From contig CANGOP010000004.1 in the NCBI GenBank assembly GCA_947455595.1, forward strand, positions 1 through 64,000: a stretch of 64,000 nt of DNA. The letters run 5' to 3'. Source of the DNA: Gammaproteobacteria bacterium. GTDB taxonomy: Bacteria > Pseudomonadota > Gammaproteobacteria > Steroidobacterales > Steroidobacteraceae. A program made the position numbers and the translations under genes. Below the pieces are notes generated by a model, which was given only the letters and a program-made list of their open reading frames with translations, was not told where the DNA came from and made no database searches. This document shows, one piece after another, positions 6,249-35,665 of this stretch (the first letter of the stretch is position 1; each line of letters opens with the position of its first letter).

Positions 6249-7279
6249 AACGACCCTACCGAAGCCGCGGCCTGACCCTGATAGAGCTCATGATCGCCAT
6301 GACCATCGGTCTCGTGCTCGTGGGCGGCGCCTTCAAAATCTTCATGGACAGCTCGCGCACCTACGGTATCCATGAGACGGAAAGTCGTCTGGAAGAAAAC
6401 GCACGCTATGTCTACTCGGTCCTCGAGGCCGATGTGCGCATGGCCGGCTATTGGGGCTACGCCAAAGGCGTCAGCGGCATCATCGGCACGACGCCGCAGA
6501 CGGATCCGGCGGCAACAACGCTGGCGGGGGCTGCCGCCAGCAGTTGCGGCACGAACTTCGGCACTGACCTCGGCACGCCGTTAGAAGGCTCGAACGACCG
6601 CTACACGCTGGGCTGCGTGGCCTATCAAAGTCGTTTTATGCCCTCGGCCGACACGCTGACGGTACGCCGCGCCGGTTTGAATGCCAGCGCAGTCGGCGCC
6701 AACGCGATCGGCCCGTTGCGCATCTGCTCCACGCGCACCAACGTCTCGCTGGTGAATACGGTCAACGCCTGTCAGGCCGACCAAACAGTCGCCGAAAACT
6801 CCCCCGGCACGATTCACGATCTGGTCGTCCATACGTATTACGTGGCCCGTGACGCCTCGAGCGGCAGCAATGTGCCGACACTCTGGCGCAAATCGCTCAA
6901 CAACGTCGGCACGGTACCGACCTTTCAGGACGAGGAAATCCTCGCCGGTGTTGAAGACTTTCAGGTGCAATTCGGAATCGATTACACCGGCACGACCGGC
7001 GTCGCGCAACAATACGTCGATCCCGTCGCAGCCGGCGCACTGCCCAGTGGCGCGCAGATCGTTGCCGTGCGCCTGTGGGTCCTCATTCGCTCCGACACAC
7101 TGGAACCGGGTTTTACCGACAATCGCACCTACGTCTATGGCAACCGCTCGACCCAAAACGGAACCGTGAATGACCTGACCAGTGGCAGCAACGGGGGTCT
7201 CGCGTACCAGCCGAATGATCATTACCGGCGCCTGTTGGTTTCCCGGACTGTCATGATCCGCAACGTGTTGGGGACCTGA
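6245..7279 (+). CDS. pilW: Type IV pilus minor pilin PilW
   Basis: A 344-residue minor pilin beginning with a type III leader (SRGLTLIELMIAM, Leu at +1, Glu at +5). The large size, the early segment with MAGYWGY, and the C-terminal part with a VRLWVLIRSDT stretch are typical of PilW. It acts with PilV and PilX in the pilus tip complex. It starts inside the pilV stop and ends two bases before pilX. Confidence 0.9.
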   Translation: MKRPYRSRGLTLIELMIAMTIGLVLVGGAFKIFMDSSRTYGIHETESRLEENARYVYSVLEADVRMAGYWGYAKGVSGIIGTTPQTDPAATTLAGAAASSCGTNFGTDLGTPLEGSNDRYTLGCVAYQSRFMPSADTLTVRRAGLNASAVGANAIGPLRICSTRTNVSLVNTVNACQADQTVAENSPGTIHDLVVHTYYVARDASSGSNVPTLWRKSLNNVGTVPTFQDEEILAGVEDFQVQFGIDYTGTTGVAQQYVDPVAAGALPSGAQIVAVRLWVLIRSDTLEPGFTDNRTYVYGNRSTQNGTVNDLTSGSNGGLAYQPNDHYRRLLVSRTVMIRNVLGT

Positions 7280-23223: not shown

Positions 23224-24926
23224 CAGAAGAGGAAGTAGCGTTGCGCGAGCGGCAGTTCCTGTGCCGGCTCACATTCGAGTTTCACACCATCGGCACGCAC
23301 CTCATAGGTCTCTGGATCCACATCAATGACGGGTGTGGCGTCGTTATGCACCATGTCGGCCTTGGTCACTGAGCGGGTTCCACGTACGGCGACCAGCGGT
23401 TTACCCAACCCCAAGGCTTCCAGCGAACCTAGGTCCAGGGCCGCTTGGGAGACGAAGGTGACCGAGGTCTTCAGTCCCTGCCCGAAGGCCGCAAACATCG
23501 GTCGATAGTGCACCGGCTGTGGCGTCGGAATAGACGCGTTGGGATCCCCCATGGGCGCCAGCGCAATCATGCCACCCTTGAGCACCATGGCCGGTTTCGC
23601 CGCGAAGAACGCCGGACGCCACAACACCAGATCGGCCAACTTACCTGGCTCGATCGAACCCACCAGATGCGAGATGCCGTGAGTGATCGCCGGGTTGATC
23701 GTATACTTGGCGATATAGCGTTTGGCGCGGGCATTGTCGGAGCGTGCCGAATCACCCGGAAGGCTGCCGCGCTGCTGTTTCATCTTGTGCGCCGTTTGCC
23801 AGGTGCGGATCACCACCTCGCCGACCCGCCCCATCGCCTGCGAGTCCGATGACATCATCGAAAAGACCCCAAGGTCGTGGAGGATGTCTTCCGCCGCAAT
23901 CGTCTCGCGACGGATACGCGATTCGGCAAATGCAACGTCTTCGGCAATCGACGCATCCAGGTGATGGCACACCATCAACATGTCCAGATGTTCATCCACG
24001 GTGTTGACGGTATAGGGACGCGTCGGATTGGTGGAACTGGGCAACACATTCGGCAGCGCTGCCGCCCGAATGATGTCCGGCGCGTGGCCGCCTCCGGCAC
24101 CTTCGGTGTGGAAGGTGTGAATCGTGCGTCCACCAATCGCCGCGAGTGTGGTCTCGACGAAACCCGACTCGTTGAGCGTATCGGTATGAATGGCGACTTG
24201 CACATCCATCTGATCCGCAACGCTGAGACAGGTATCAATCGCTTTGGGTGTGGTGCCCCAATCCTCATGGAGTTTGAGCCCGATCGCACCGGCCTCGATC
24301 TGCTCGATGAGCGGCGCTTTTGCACTGGCATTGCCCTTGCCGAGAAATCCGAGATTCATCGGGAAGGCTTCGGCCGCGCCCAACATGCGCGCGAGGTGCC
24401 ATGGACCCGGTGTGCACGTCGTCGCCGTGGTGCCGGCCGCAGGGCCCGTGCCACCACCCAACATGGTCGTCACACCGGAGGCCAACGCATCGTCGATCTG
24501 TTGGGGACAAATGTAGTGAATATGCGAATCGACGCCGCCGGCCGTGACGATCATCCCTTCTCCGGCAATGATCTCGGTCCCGGCACCGATGGGAATATCC
24601 ACACCCGGTTGCACGTCGGGGTTGCCCGCCTTCCCCACGCGCCAGATATAGCCATCTTTGAGGCCGATATCGGCCTTCACCACACCCCAGTAATCCAAGA
24701 TGACGGCATTGGTGATGACCGTATCGGCCACCTCGGCCGAACCCAGCTGGCTTTGCCCCATGCCGTCGCGGATGACCTTTCCGCCGCCAAACTTCACTTC
24801 CTCGCCGTACACGGTGCGATCCGATTCAATCGTGATCCACAACGCCGTGTCGGCCAAGCGAATACGGTCACCGGTTGTCGGTCCGTACATTTCAGCATAA
24901 GCCTTGCGACTCACTCGGATAGCCAT
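23223..24926 (-). CDS. ureC: Urease subunit alpha UreC
   Basis: The 567-residue catalytic subunit that hydrolyses urea to ammonia and carbamate in the cytoplasm. All active-site residues are present at Klebsiella numbering plus one: His135, His137, carbamylated Lys218, His247, His273, Asp361, and the flap Cys320-His321. The protein therefore looks fully active. It starts in the ureB stop and ends at the ureE start. Confidence 0.99.
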
Positions 24927-32483: not shown

Positions 32484-34220
32484 TCAGCCGCGAAGATGCA
32501 GCCACTTCGGATACCAGACCTCGTGTCGCCGCCAAAAATACCGCAAGCCACCGACCAACACGATAGTCGATAGCAGCGAGGCGGTGACAAGCCAGCGCGT
32601 ATGCTCGAAATGATTGGCCACGAGCAGGCCACCCACGAGCCATAACCCACCCACCAAGGTGCATTCTTCCTGCAATTTCGATCGAAATGACACCGGTTCG
32701 CGGCCCGTCATGACATCTCGGACCAAGCTACCGCCACAGCAGGTCAACCACGCGCAAAACGGCGCCCAGACCCATGGCAAGCCCAGGCTTAAGGGCACGA
32801 TGGCCCCAAAGGCCGCGACACAGGCGTATCCGATATCTTCCGCAATGGATTTGGTTAACTGGAAGGCGCGACTGTGCGTACCGAGCGGCAGGAAATACAC
32901 CAACACGCTGGCCGCCATCACGGCGCAAAAGACGCCTAACGGCAAGAGTGGATCAAGCAACCACGGGAACGGCAGCCGCGAACCGCCCAACAGCAAGTCG
33001 CGCAGCACACCACCACCCATACAGCCCACCGCGCTGATCACGATGCGGCCAACCAAGTTGTAGCCCGCTGCCGTCGCCCACAAACCACCGGCGAAGCCGA
33101 AAATCCAAATACCGGCGACCACGAAGGCGCGGAACCAATCGGATTCCATCAGGATCCGCAAATACTGGCGGGTCGACGATGTCAGGAGAGCACCACGGTA
33201 ATTCGGAGCCTTCACTTCTTCCATGAGGGACATTGTCCAAATCGGGTTGGAAACGAAATTGCGTGGACTTCTCAGTTTCAACGAAGCAACTTCCTGATCA
33301 TAGTCATGAATGTTGATCAGTCCAAATCCATCCGCATCCGTGGAAATGTTGGGAATTAGATCGTCCAACATCGCTTTCTGATAGGCGAACGTAGTAGAGA
33401 TCCCGCGGGTATACCGCAGAACGATGTTCGCGGCAGGTGCCGGCGATGCTTTTGCGTAGGCCCAACCCCGACGGAGCGCGCGAAGAAATTTCAGCAACCT
33501 TTCTCGAAATTCCGCAGACCGCAGTGAATCTGCACGAACATAAAGACCATCTTCCACATGAGAGATTCCGTTGTCATGAGGCGAAAACGTGATGATGTCA
33601 CTGGCGGGAATGCCGGCATCGACAACCCACAGCACCTCGTTATAACTGACACCTGTAATACACGGGGCGTCGCCTCTCAGCAGAGTTTCTCCATTCTTCG
33701 CGTTTTGCACCCATTTGATATGTTCTGCATCGACGTTCGCTGCTGCCAACATTGCGCGAATCGTGACGCGGTCACCCGGCCACGTCACGCTGATGGTCTT
33801 ACCGGCCAGATCATTAATCGACTGAATACCTGCACTCACCCTGCAGATAATTTCGAAACTGGATCCAGAAAATATCTGCGCAACATTGACCAGATCCGCG
33901 CCTTCAGCATTCGCGTCTAGCGCATTATCGAGCCACGACACGGCGACATCAACTTCACCACGCTGCAGTCGCTCCAACGGGTCGAGCTCGGGTCCGCCCT
34001 CGAGCAGTTGAATGCCAACACCTTCCTCGCGGAAGTAATTCTGAAAGTCCGCGACGTAATATCCGGCGAACTGGGATTGGTGGTACCACATCAACTGCAC
34101 GCGCAGCGGTGGCGACGTTGCGGGTTCGGCAGCTGCGCCACTCACGACGCTCAAGAACGTCGCAATAAGTAAGCACGCTAGCGACAGAATCGAACCGTAC
34201 ACGCCCCAACGCTTGAACAC
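32484..34220 (-). CDS. Fusion of NMT1/THI5-like substrate-binding domain and TRIC/UPF0126 membrane domain
   Basis: A 578-residue protein. A signal segment (about 10-31) leads into an ABC-type periplasmic binding domain of the NMT1/THI5 group (about 37-330: VQLMWYHQSQFAGYYVAD, EVDVAVSWLDNAL, ISVTWPGDRVTIRAML). The C-terminal 210 residues form about seven membrane segments with two repeats of the TRIC cation channel/UPF0126 motif: GGGVLRDLLLGG at 402-413 and GGSLVRDVMTGREP at 496-509. The known families are a solute receptor for pyrimidine-, nitrate- or sulfonate-like ligands and a trimeric channel/glycine-transporter-like protein. A ligand-gated channel or receptor-transporter is inference. 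It starts with GTG (34220), with AAGAGGGG upstream. An IS lies 121 bases upstream. Confidence 0.88.
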   Translation of the reverse strand: MFKRWGVYGSILSLACLLIATFLSVVSGAAAEPATSPPLRVQLMWYHQSQFAGYYVADFQNYFREEGVGIQLLEGGPELDPLERLQRGEVDVAVSWLDNALDANAEGADLVNVAQIFSGSSFEIICRVSAGIQSINDLAGKTISVTWPGDRVTIRAMLAAANVDAEHIKWVQNAKNGETLLRGDAPCITGVSYNEVLWVVDAGIPASDIITFSPHDNGISHVEDGLYVRADSLRSAEFRERLLKFLRALRRGWAYAKASPAPAANIVLRYTRGISTTFAYQKAMLDDLIPNISTDADGFGLINIHDYDQEVASLKLRSPRNFVSNPIWTMSLMEEVKAPNYRGALLTSSTRQYLRILMESDWFRAFVVAGIWIFGFAGGLWATAAGYNLVGRIVISAVGCMGGGVLRDLLLGGSRLPFPWLLDPLLPLGVFCAVMAASVLVYFLPLGTHSRAFQLTKSIAEDIGYACVAAFGAIVPLSLGLPWVWAPFCAWLTCCGGSLVRDVMTGREPVSFRSKLQEECTLVGGLWLVGGLLVANHFEHTRWLVTASLLSTIVLVGGLRYFWRRHEVWYPKWLHLRG

Positions 34221-34340: not shown

Positions 34341-34363
34341 CAGTAGTGTCCGGACGTTAGTGG
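34341..34363 (+). repeat. Left terminal inverted repeat of the IS
   Basis: 23 bp identical to the reverse complement of 35643-35665. The transposase stop codon lies inside it. Confidence 0.93.
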
Positions 34364-35523
34364 AACAAATTCATCTGGTTGGGCGCGTCGGCATCGTTTT
34401 GGACGGCCCGGATTTGAGCAAACAAAGTATCCAAAGGGGTTTGCTCGAACATGGTTAGGCTCAGGATCTGTAGCATTTCGTAGAGGCTGGCTTGGATCTT
34501 CAACCTCTTCCTGACGATCGCGACGAGCACGTAGGTCGAGACTGCGGTCCAGATCTGTGTCTTCACGGCGTTCTCGGTCGTGCCGTAGAACTGCTTGATC
34601 CGAAGATGCTGCTTGATCCACTTGAAGAAGAGTTCGACCTGCCATCGGCAGCGATACAGCTCCGTGATCGTCAGTGCCGGCAAGACGAAGTTGTTCGTCA
34701 GGAACACCAGCCGCTTGCCGGTCTTCGGGTCGGTGAATCGGATGCGACGCAGAGGCGTGTCGAAGTCCTGCCTGGAGTAGACACCCGTCAGGACTATCGT
34801 CTGGTCGCAAATAAGACCGGTGCTTCGATCCACCGGACGCGAATAGCGACGCTGAACCCTGAGGTGCGACTTGGCGCGGGTCACGAAGAAGCTGCCCGCA
34901 GTGTGAAGCCGAAAGAGCCTCTTGAAGTCCAGGTATCCCCGATCCATGACGTAGAAAGCGCCGGCTTCCGGAAGCAGCTGATCGAGGATATTGACCTCGT
35001 GCATCTTGCCGTCGCTGATGTGGATAAATGCCGGGATATTGCCGCGCAGATCGAGCAGCGTGTGCAGCTTGACGGCCGCCTTCGTCGTGCGGAACGGCGC
35101 CCAAGGAAAGACCGACAGGCACAGATCGATGGTCGTGGCGTCCAACGCGTAGACCGTCTCGTTGAGATCCACGCCGAACGGCTCGTCGATATACAGCTTC
35201 CGCGCCATCGTGATCAGGCGCTGCGCGAACGCGGCGTGGATGCGCCAGTCGCGAGCTTCGTTCGCATCCGCGAGCGTGCTGCGCGAGATCCGGCTGCGGA
35301 TCCCCATGTGATACAGCTTGTCGCTCTGTGCTCTGAGGCAGGCCTCGATGTCGCGAAGGCTCTCGCGGTAGGTGAGCTGCGCAAAGGCCAGGCAGAGAAA
35401 TTGTTCGAGACACGAGAAGCTCTTGACCTTGTGCTCGCCGCCGTACGCCGCCACGCAGCGACGAAACGTCGACAGCGGCAGATGGCTCGTCAACTGCGCG
35501 AAAACCAGCTTGCCGGAGTGCAT
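34357..35523 (-). CDS. IS4-family transposase
   Basis: A 388-residue transposase with an N-terminal DUF4372-type region (about 5-75) and a DDE_Tnp_1 catalytic domain. The catalytic residues are visible: Asp in YALDATTIDL (about 148), Asp in YVMDRGY (about 200), and Glu in the Y-x2-R-x3-E-x6-K signature (YRCRWQVELFFKWIK). It is intact, with the ATG at 35523 and the stop within the left inverted repeat. It carries out cut-and-paste movement of the element. Confidence 0.96.
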   Translation of the reverse strand: MHSGKLVFAQLTSHLPLSTFRRCVAAYGGEHKVKSFSCLEQFLCLAFAQLTYRESLRDIEACLRAQSDKLYHMGIRSRISRSTLADANEARDWRIHAAFAQRLITMARKLYIDEPFGVDLNETVYALDATTIDLCLSVFPWAPFRTTKAAVKLHTLLDLRGNIPAFIHISDGKMHEVNILDQLLPEAGAFYVMDRGYLDFKRLFRLHTAGSFFVTRAKSHLRVQRRYSRPVDRSTGLICDQTIVLTGVYSRQDFDTPLRRIRFTDPKTGKRLVFLTNNFVLPALTITELYRCRWQVELFFKWIKQHLRIKQFYGTTENAVKTQIWTAVSTYVLVAIVRKRLKIQASLYEMLQILSLTMFEQTPLDTLFAQIRAVQNDADAPNQMNLFH

Positions 35524-35642
35524 TGGAAACGTCCGCGAACAGGGTCTTCGCAGGGTCGCACCGGCGCATGCCGAAGTCGAAATCGAGACCAGACAAAGTC
35601 ACGATTTATCCTAAACGGATCAGTCATTTATGGGCATGTCGC

Positions 35643-35665
35643 CCACTAACGTCCGGACACTACTG
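35643..35665 (-). repeat. Right terminal inverted repeat of the IS
   Basis: 23 bp, a perfect inverted copy of 34341-34363; on the plus strand it ends in ...GGACACTACTG, directly followed by the target duplication. Confidence 0.93.

Follow-up and report, generated by a model that had tools for sequence, protein, structure and literature searches.

Prokaryotic TRIC proteins (SaTRIC, SsTRIC, CpTRIC and RsTRIC; PF03458, UPF0126, E. coli YadS; YicG) have two PF03458 repeats and R-D pairs, and their TM2 and TM5 are kinked at glycines. Their role in bacteria is unsettled: structures and recordings point to a K+ channel, and transposon genetics to glycine use. A natural fusion of a TRIC to a binding protein with a guessable class of ligand offers a handle on this role, in that the ligand would be either gate or cargo. 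Among ABC systems, binding domains tethered to the membrane protein that they serve are found in GlnPQ, and OpuA is likewise a fusion of a solute-binding protein (SBP) and a permease. GluR0 and the ionotropic glutamate receptors combine a bilobed periplasmic or extracellular SBP domain and a cation pore in one chain, and in GluR0 an inverted K+-channel pore is inserted between the SBP lobes, as set out in PMC6385376 and PMC13099474. A binding protein fused to a TRIC was not found in the open-access literature, as represented by titles, the starts of abstracts and mostly the best matches of many.

We analyzed such a fusion in a 64,000-nucleotide stretch of a gammaproteobacterial contig, hereafter the window. 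The original prediction, that one polypeptide joins an NMT1/THI5 receptor to a TRIC/UPF0126 domain, was borne out by domain searches for both halves. The gene (32484-34220, minus strand) is a single uninterrupted frame of 578 codons without an internal stop. In Pfam, PF09084 (NMT1) matches residues 49-261 with 124.1 bits (E 9.5e-36; cut-off 20.5), and PF03458 (Gly_transporter/TRIC) matches two stretches, the best being residues 461-527 with 58.4 bits (E 6.5e-16; cut-off 23.5); both PF03458 repeats are above cut-off, in the genome search as well. In a PDB sequence search, residues 39-269 match 3ix1, a formylaminopyrimidine-binding protein, and the C-terminal half matches five TRIC chains (5h35, 5wtr, 5wuf, 5wuc and 5h36); among the chains listed, none spans both halves. 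With both domains in one open frame, the fusion is real. The predicted export signal and the two glycine motifs are also present, the former as a hydrophobic segment at residues 11-29. The features are as follows.

32484..34220, minus strand: whole fusion gene, 578 aa, GTG start, with spanning relatives in 6 further genomes
34122..34220, minus strand: N-terminal export signal, residues 1-33, from hydropathy, with a putative cleavage site
33321..34106, minus strand: NMT1/THI5-type solute-binding domain, residues 39-300, from the PF09084 and 3ix1 matches and conservation
33843-33845 and 33660-33662 in the window: C126 and C187, from conservation
33636..33644, minus strand: Y193-N194-E195, part of a motif common to ABC-type NMT1 binding proteins (7/7 fusions, 24/24 ABC-type rows)
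33141..33320, minus strand: linker, residues 301-360, with a dN above those of the SBP and TRIC domains (window versus G004)
32535..33140, minus strand: TRIC domain, residues 361-562, from the two PF03458 stretches and the five PDB TRIC chains
32997..33017, minus strand: GGGVLRD, residues 402-408, the TM2 kink motif (SaTRIC GGG48-50), from the alignment
32760..32774, minus strand: W483-x-W485-x-P487, class signature in the TM4-TM5 turn, on the periplasmic side by predicted topology
32715..32735, minus strand: GGSLVRD, residues 496-502, the TM5 kink motif and R139-D140 pair, with Ser as the third glycine in the window
32664..32678, minus strand: plug region, residues 515-519, with Q517 instead of the plug Tyr (SaTRIC Y155) and E519, a class signature

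The protein thus differs from other prokaryotic TRICs in the exported binding domain placed before TM1. The closest sequence kin of its N-terminal half are the NMT1/THI5 binding proteins of ABC systems (ThiY-like, 3ix1), from which it differs in being tied covalently to a TRIC. The absence of adjacent ABC genes, noted previously, held for the nine neighbors that we scanned for domains, which encode GH127, EamA, M28 peptidase, DUF2934, DLH (dienelactone) hydrolase, IS4 transposase, A24 peptidase, CpaB and secretin; there is no ABC permease or ATPase gene among them, and visual inspection around the other fusions showed none either. Unlike GlnPQ-type fusions, the protein contains no ABC permease domain (Pfam scan) and no ATPase. 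Unlike in GluR0, the pore is an unrelated TRIC that follows a whole SBP; hence the protein may work like GluR0 but is not a member of the GluR0 family.

To describe the distribution of the fusion, we searched genomes of the window's phylum, scoring the top candidates from an initial pass. Three of the 15 genomes of the genus carry it, namely, the window, G004 (65% identity) and G009 (56%; protein search). A profile of these three gave spanning matches in 6/217 genomes of the family and 7/396 of the order, adding G548, G614, G617 and G639. These four are 31-37% identical to the window protein (identities of all six relatives: 65, 56, 37, 35, 34 and 31%) and, together with the genus members, span two families. 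All frames are uninterrupted, two of them ending at contig ends (G009 at the end, G639 at the start); a TGA noted for G617 lies ahead of its start codon. The spanning relatives rule out a frame error or local join, and the fusion belongs to a small, rare group. At a threshold of E 1e-12, the matches in 369 genomes of the class included no further NMT1 fusion, and neither did the matches listed for 398 genomes of the phylum. With a profile of the fused-type TRIC domain, the window was the sole fused-type score (327 bits; next 116) in 194 genomes of its class. Several other candidates were discarded: in the long frames of G010, G088 and G470, Pfam finds a TRIC alone; those of G180, G282, G203 and G1342 appear by eye to be ordinary TRIC C termini after noncoding-looking stretches (G282 and G203 came from the 194-genome list); and G616 has an NMT1 protein that ends at a contig end, beside what looks by eye like a permease frame.

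Between the window and G004, dN and dS are 0.234 and 1.79 for the binding domain (dN/dS about 0.13), 0.204 and 2.29 for the TRIC domain (about 0.09), and 0.487 and 1.55 for the linker, which is under weaker constraint than either domain. By these estimates both the SBP and TRIC halves are under constraint, with ratios that are rough because dS is near saturation.

A second architecture emerged from the phylum scan: G928 has a 543-codon frame in which Pfam recognizes SBP_bac_3 (PF00497) followed by TRIC. Relatives occur in 4/76 genomes of its order, and fused-type copies occur in 8/190 genomes of its class, which differs from that of the window (fused-TRIC-domain profile). SBP_bac_3-TRIC fusions are present in six of these 190 genomes (G928, G1387, G1332, G1272, G1129 and G1101), and nine such genes are confirmed by Pfam. 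G1129 has three, and both it and G1101 carry a tandem pair (L180 6888-10227 and L182 6523-9759, respectively). Fused-type copies score 136-275 bits in the 190 genomes and others at most 104, except for the very divergent third G1129 copy (L181 4891-6372), which scores 58 bits and is nevertheless a fusion according to Pfam. G1220 and G1232 were assigned by identity (82% and 67% over most of the length), and in G1202 only the TRIC half is recognized by Pfam. The remaining two of the eight genomes, G1302 and G1418, have free fused-type TRIC genes without a binding domain (L183 5584-6336 and L179 about 6426-7180); no split or recognizable SBP gene lies beside them in the fetched stretches. For the SBP_bac_3 half of G1387, the best matches are amino-acid binding proteins of ABC systems, and chains named as glutamine ABC permease and substrate-binding protein occur among all its matches.

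We then asked how the TRIC domains of the two architectures are related, using domains cut at TM1 so that the linker was excluded. In an 89-row tree (without L085, which had a wrong motif cut), a branch with support of 100/99 parts 68 stand-alone TRICs from seven NMT1-type, 12 SBP3-type and two free sequences. In a tree rooted with an archaeal outgroup, which also holds Bacillota, Bacteroidota and one betaproteobacterial TRIC and omits L085 and the very long branch of L181, 20 fused-type rows, comprising both types and the free copies, form one clade (97/94). Both trees gave long-branch warnings, and a long-branch effect on the fused-type clade is conceivable. One comparison set excluded duplicates of one gene as well as L026 and L116. 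Three residues accompany the clade: position 485 is Trp in 20/21 fused-type rows (Tyr in the remaining one) and in none of the 68 stand-alones; P487 is found in 19/21 versus 1/68; and E519 is found in 20/21 versus 0/68. The free copies of G1302 and G1418 retain all three. At position 483, Trp is confined to the NMT1 type (7/7). Mean TRIC identity between the NMT1 and SBP3 types (24.7%) is no higher than that between the NMT1 type and the stand-alones (25.0%); therefore, the fused-type clade rests on the tree and the signature. On that evidence, one TRIC lineage has used two binding-domain families, and the domains appear interchangeable. The tree and the common signature speak against unrelated, separate fusions of the two receptor types; they fit a pair of fusion events within a single TRIC clade as well as one fusion followed by a receptor swap.

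In a 62-row NMT1 tree, which was built without L010, L031, L093, L005, L069, duplicates and rows failing the coverage filter, the seven fusions join 24 ABC-type binding proteins with support of 91/81; support for the fusions as a group is weak (84/63), and this tree, too, gave long-branch warnings. Within the ABC-type set, neighbors were listed for six loci and searched for domains at two. A QFAGYY motif had hinted at an origin from sensory NMT1 proteins, which is disfavored, as 21 long sensor-labeled proteins (those with >110 residues after the NMT1 domain) form their own clade (100/99). Residues common to the fusions and the ABC-type proteins are W45, Q48, Q50, N112, Q115, C126, C187, Y193-N194-E195, G225, Y227, G252 and W253, of which Y193-N194-E195, C187, G225, Y227, G252 and W253 are kept in 7/7 fusions and in 23 or 24 of the 24 ABC-type rows. 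N150, present in 24/24 ABC-type rows, is instead D in 7/7 fusions. C126 is kept in 6/6 fusions; both it and C187 are present in 24/24 ABC-type SBPs, and other residues mostly occupy the two sites in 20 sensor-type rows. The two cysteines perhaps form a disulfide. Two ABC-type loci have adjacent permease or ABC genes and a dihydropyrimidinase gene. Given the ABC-type kinship, the shared residues and these two loci, the ligand of the NMT1 type is probably pyrimidine-like. It need not be a nutrient, since none of the seven NMT1-type carriers has a dihydropyrimidinase above the model cut-off (G639 and G548 have weaker amidohydrolase matches); likewise, no catabolic genes of that pathway were seen by eye beside the fusions.

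Next, we compared the pore with the characterized channels, mapping SaTRIC numbering through HMMER alignments and the numbering in passages of PMC5477506. In the NMT1 type, the TM2 GGG, R407, D408 and D502 are kept in 7/7 and R501 in 6/7, so that both R-D pairs (R407-D408 and R501-D502) are present in the window; in TM5, GG is kept in 7/7 and the third Gly in 6/7, the exception being the window (GGS496-498). In contrast, three residues of other prokaryotic TRICs are each replaced in 6/7 NMT1-type proteins. The position of D99, the M4 Asp, is E (E461 in the window); the F106 filter position is I, L or V; and the plug Tyr155 position is F, Q or R. The window protein accordingly lacks the plug Tyr and M4 Asp of the prokaryotic lock network, which is a conserved subfeature and not the definition of the TRIC family. 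The plug Tyr is present in 67/68 stand-alones, 13/14 SBP3-type rows and 1/7 NMT1-type rows; with the two free copies included, the SBP3 type mostly retains all three sites (D 13/14, F/Y 13/14, Y 13/14). Passages of PMC5401562 report that alanine at SsTRIC D97, F104 or Y153 (the D99, F106 and Y155 sites) gives gain-of-function growth phenotypes and that Y153A opens more; passages of PMC5477506 report more frequent opening for SaTRIC Y155A, reversed current for D99A, and wild-type-like behavior for R139A and L148A. None of the NMT1-type replacements introduces alanine, and conservative changes (D to E, Y to F) account for several of them; either altered permeation or a lost pore could follow. 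Going beyond the original prediction, the sequences indicate that the architecture is conserved as a class, that this class includes a second type of receptor, and that the window's type has altered TRIC lock residues.

The same structures bear on topology. According to passages of PMC5477506, the H2,3 helix of TRIC lies outside and the H5,6 helix inside, which implies that the TRIC N terminus is outside and the binding domain periplasmic; an approximate count of charges is in line with the N-out topology. In the pore-lining TM5, W485 and P487 fall at the beginning, on the outer side by this topology, which is where the binding domain would have to lie, and E519 adjoins the cytoplasmic plug. 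These signature residues may be in contact with the binding domain.

The data favor a protein whose binding domain acts on the pore that it is joined to. The two forms of action raised in the original prediction, a ligand-gated channel and ABC-independent uptake, are our leading readings; we consider the former to have somewhat less than an even chance and the latter to be a close, somewhat less likely rival. As a ligand-gated channel, the fusion would be a single-chain receptor-pore protein, in which a periplasmic receptor controls a TRIC cation pore in the manner of GluR0. The short, more variable linker joins the binding domain to the N-terminal end of TM1, which would be periplasmic. As is usual for TRICs, three copies would assemble into a trimer in which every subunit has a pore. 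Each pore would have the binding domain of its own chain above its external opening, close to the TM4-TM5 turn that carries W-x-W-x-P. On ligand binding, the binding domain would close and pull on the linker and TM1, and this pull would open a pore for monovalent cations (K+/Na+). In the NMT1 type, the cytoplasmic lock that resides in ordinary TRICs would be rebuilt, with the receptor taking over part of the gating. Control of the cation pore is the most likely form because two receptor families serve one pore lineage and the lock is rebuilt; receptor exchange on one pore lineage also fits a ligand that acts as a signal. Against gating, the NMT1 half is most closely related to ABC-type binding proteins rather than to sensory NMT1 domains, and the link of UPF0126 to glycine use points to solute transport. 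If gating holds, bacteria would have built ligand-gated channels from binding proteins a second time, on an unrelated pore. A more far-reaching version is tentative: the fusions would form a new class of trimeric ligand-gated channels, with a TRIC pore in each subunit gated by its own tethered receptor, that arose once and then exchanged receptors of the amino-acid and pyrimidine types, in parallel with the origin of glutamate receptors.

In the case of uptake, the tethered domain would feed its ligand into the outer vestibule of the TRIC in the same chain, and the pore would pass the ligand itself, namely, amino acids in the SBP_bac_3 type and a pyrimidine-like compound in the NMT1 type. A passage of PMC12173739 reports that stand-alone UPF0126 genes are important for glycine use in 11 bacteria, which agrees with such a role, as do the kinship of both receptor halves with ABC-type binding proteins and a filter residue that tracks the receptor type. 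The three genus carriers have no other TRIC above cut-off (the window genome is 88% complete), which also suits uptake. Yet the recorded prokaryotic TRIC pores pass K+/Na+, according to parts of PMC5477506 and PMC5401562; a high-affinity binding protein would presumably bring a passive pore little; and the carriers show neither a dihydropyrimidinase above the model cut-off nor, by eye, neighboring catabolic genes of its pathway. Alternatively, the TRIC half could be a trimeric membrane anchor with a dead pore, the ligand being reported through protein contacts. The changed lock and filter residues of the NMT1 type would allow this, and NMT1 is an input domain elsewhere (six of six sensor-labeled proteins checked in Pfam have GGDEF [four] or PAS [two]). 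The retained glycine and R-D motifs, a constraint on the TRIC half at least equal to that on the binding half, and the lack by eye of a conserved partner gene beyond the genus make such a scaffold improbable. Most improbable of all is a join that arose by chance or is decaying and serves no joint function: the distribution is patchy even within the genus, and G036 has a decayed remnant of the fusion, but the fusion has been kept across two families down to 31% identity, dN/dS is low in both halves, and a sister architecture exists in another class. The gated single-chain pore remains the reading that we favor.

A conserved operon partner was also sought: EamA and M28 peptidase genes adjoin the window's fusion and, by eye, that of G009, and none was recognized beside the other fusions. 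About 120 bases upstream of the start of the fusion gene lies an IS4-family element (34341-35665; DUF4372 and a DDE transposase) with terminal inverted repeats of 23 bases, flanked on both sides by the 9-base direct repeat ATTGACAAC (by eye). It may have cut the gene off from its own promoter. Riboswitch control was also considered, and Rfam gave no riboswitch family in the window at the gathering threshold. Among the TRIC proteins collected, G024 encodes one of 443 aa (L116 2462-3793) whose N terminus holds a TRIC repeat and whose long C-terminal part has no Pfam match. Elsewhere in the window, positions 24488-24774 match the 5' ureB sRNA family of Rfam with 98.8 bits.
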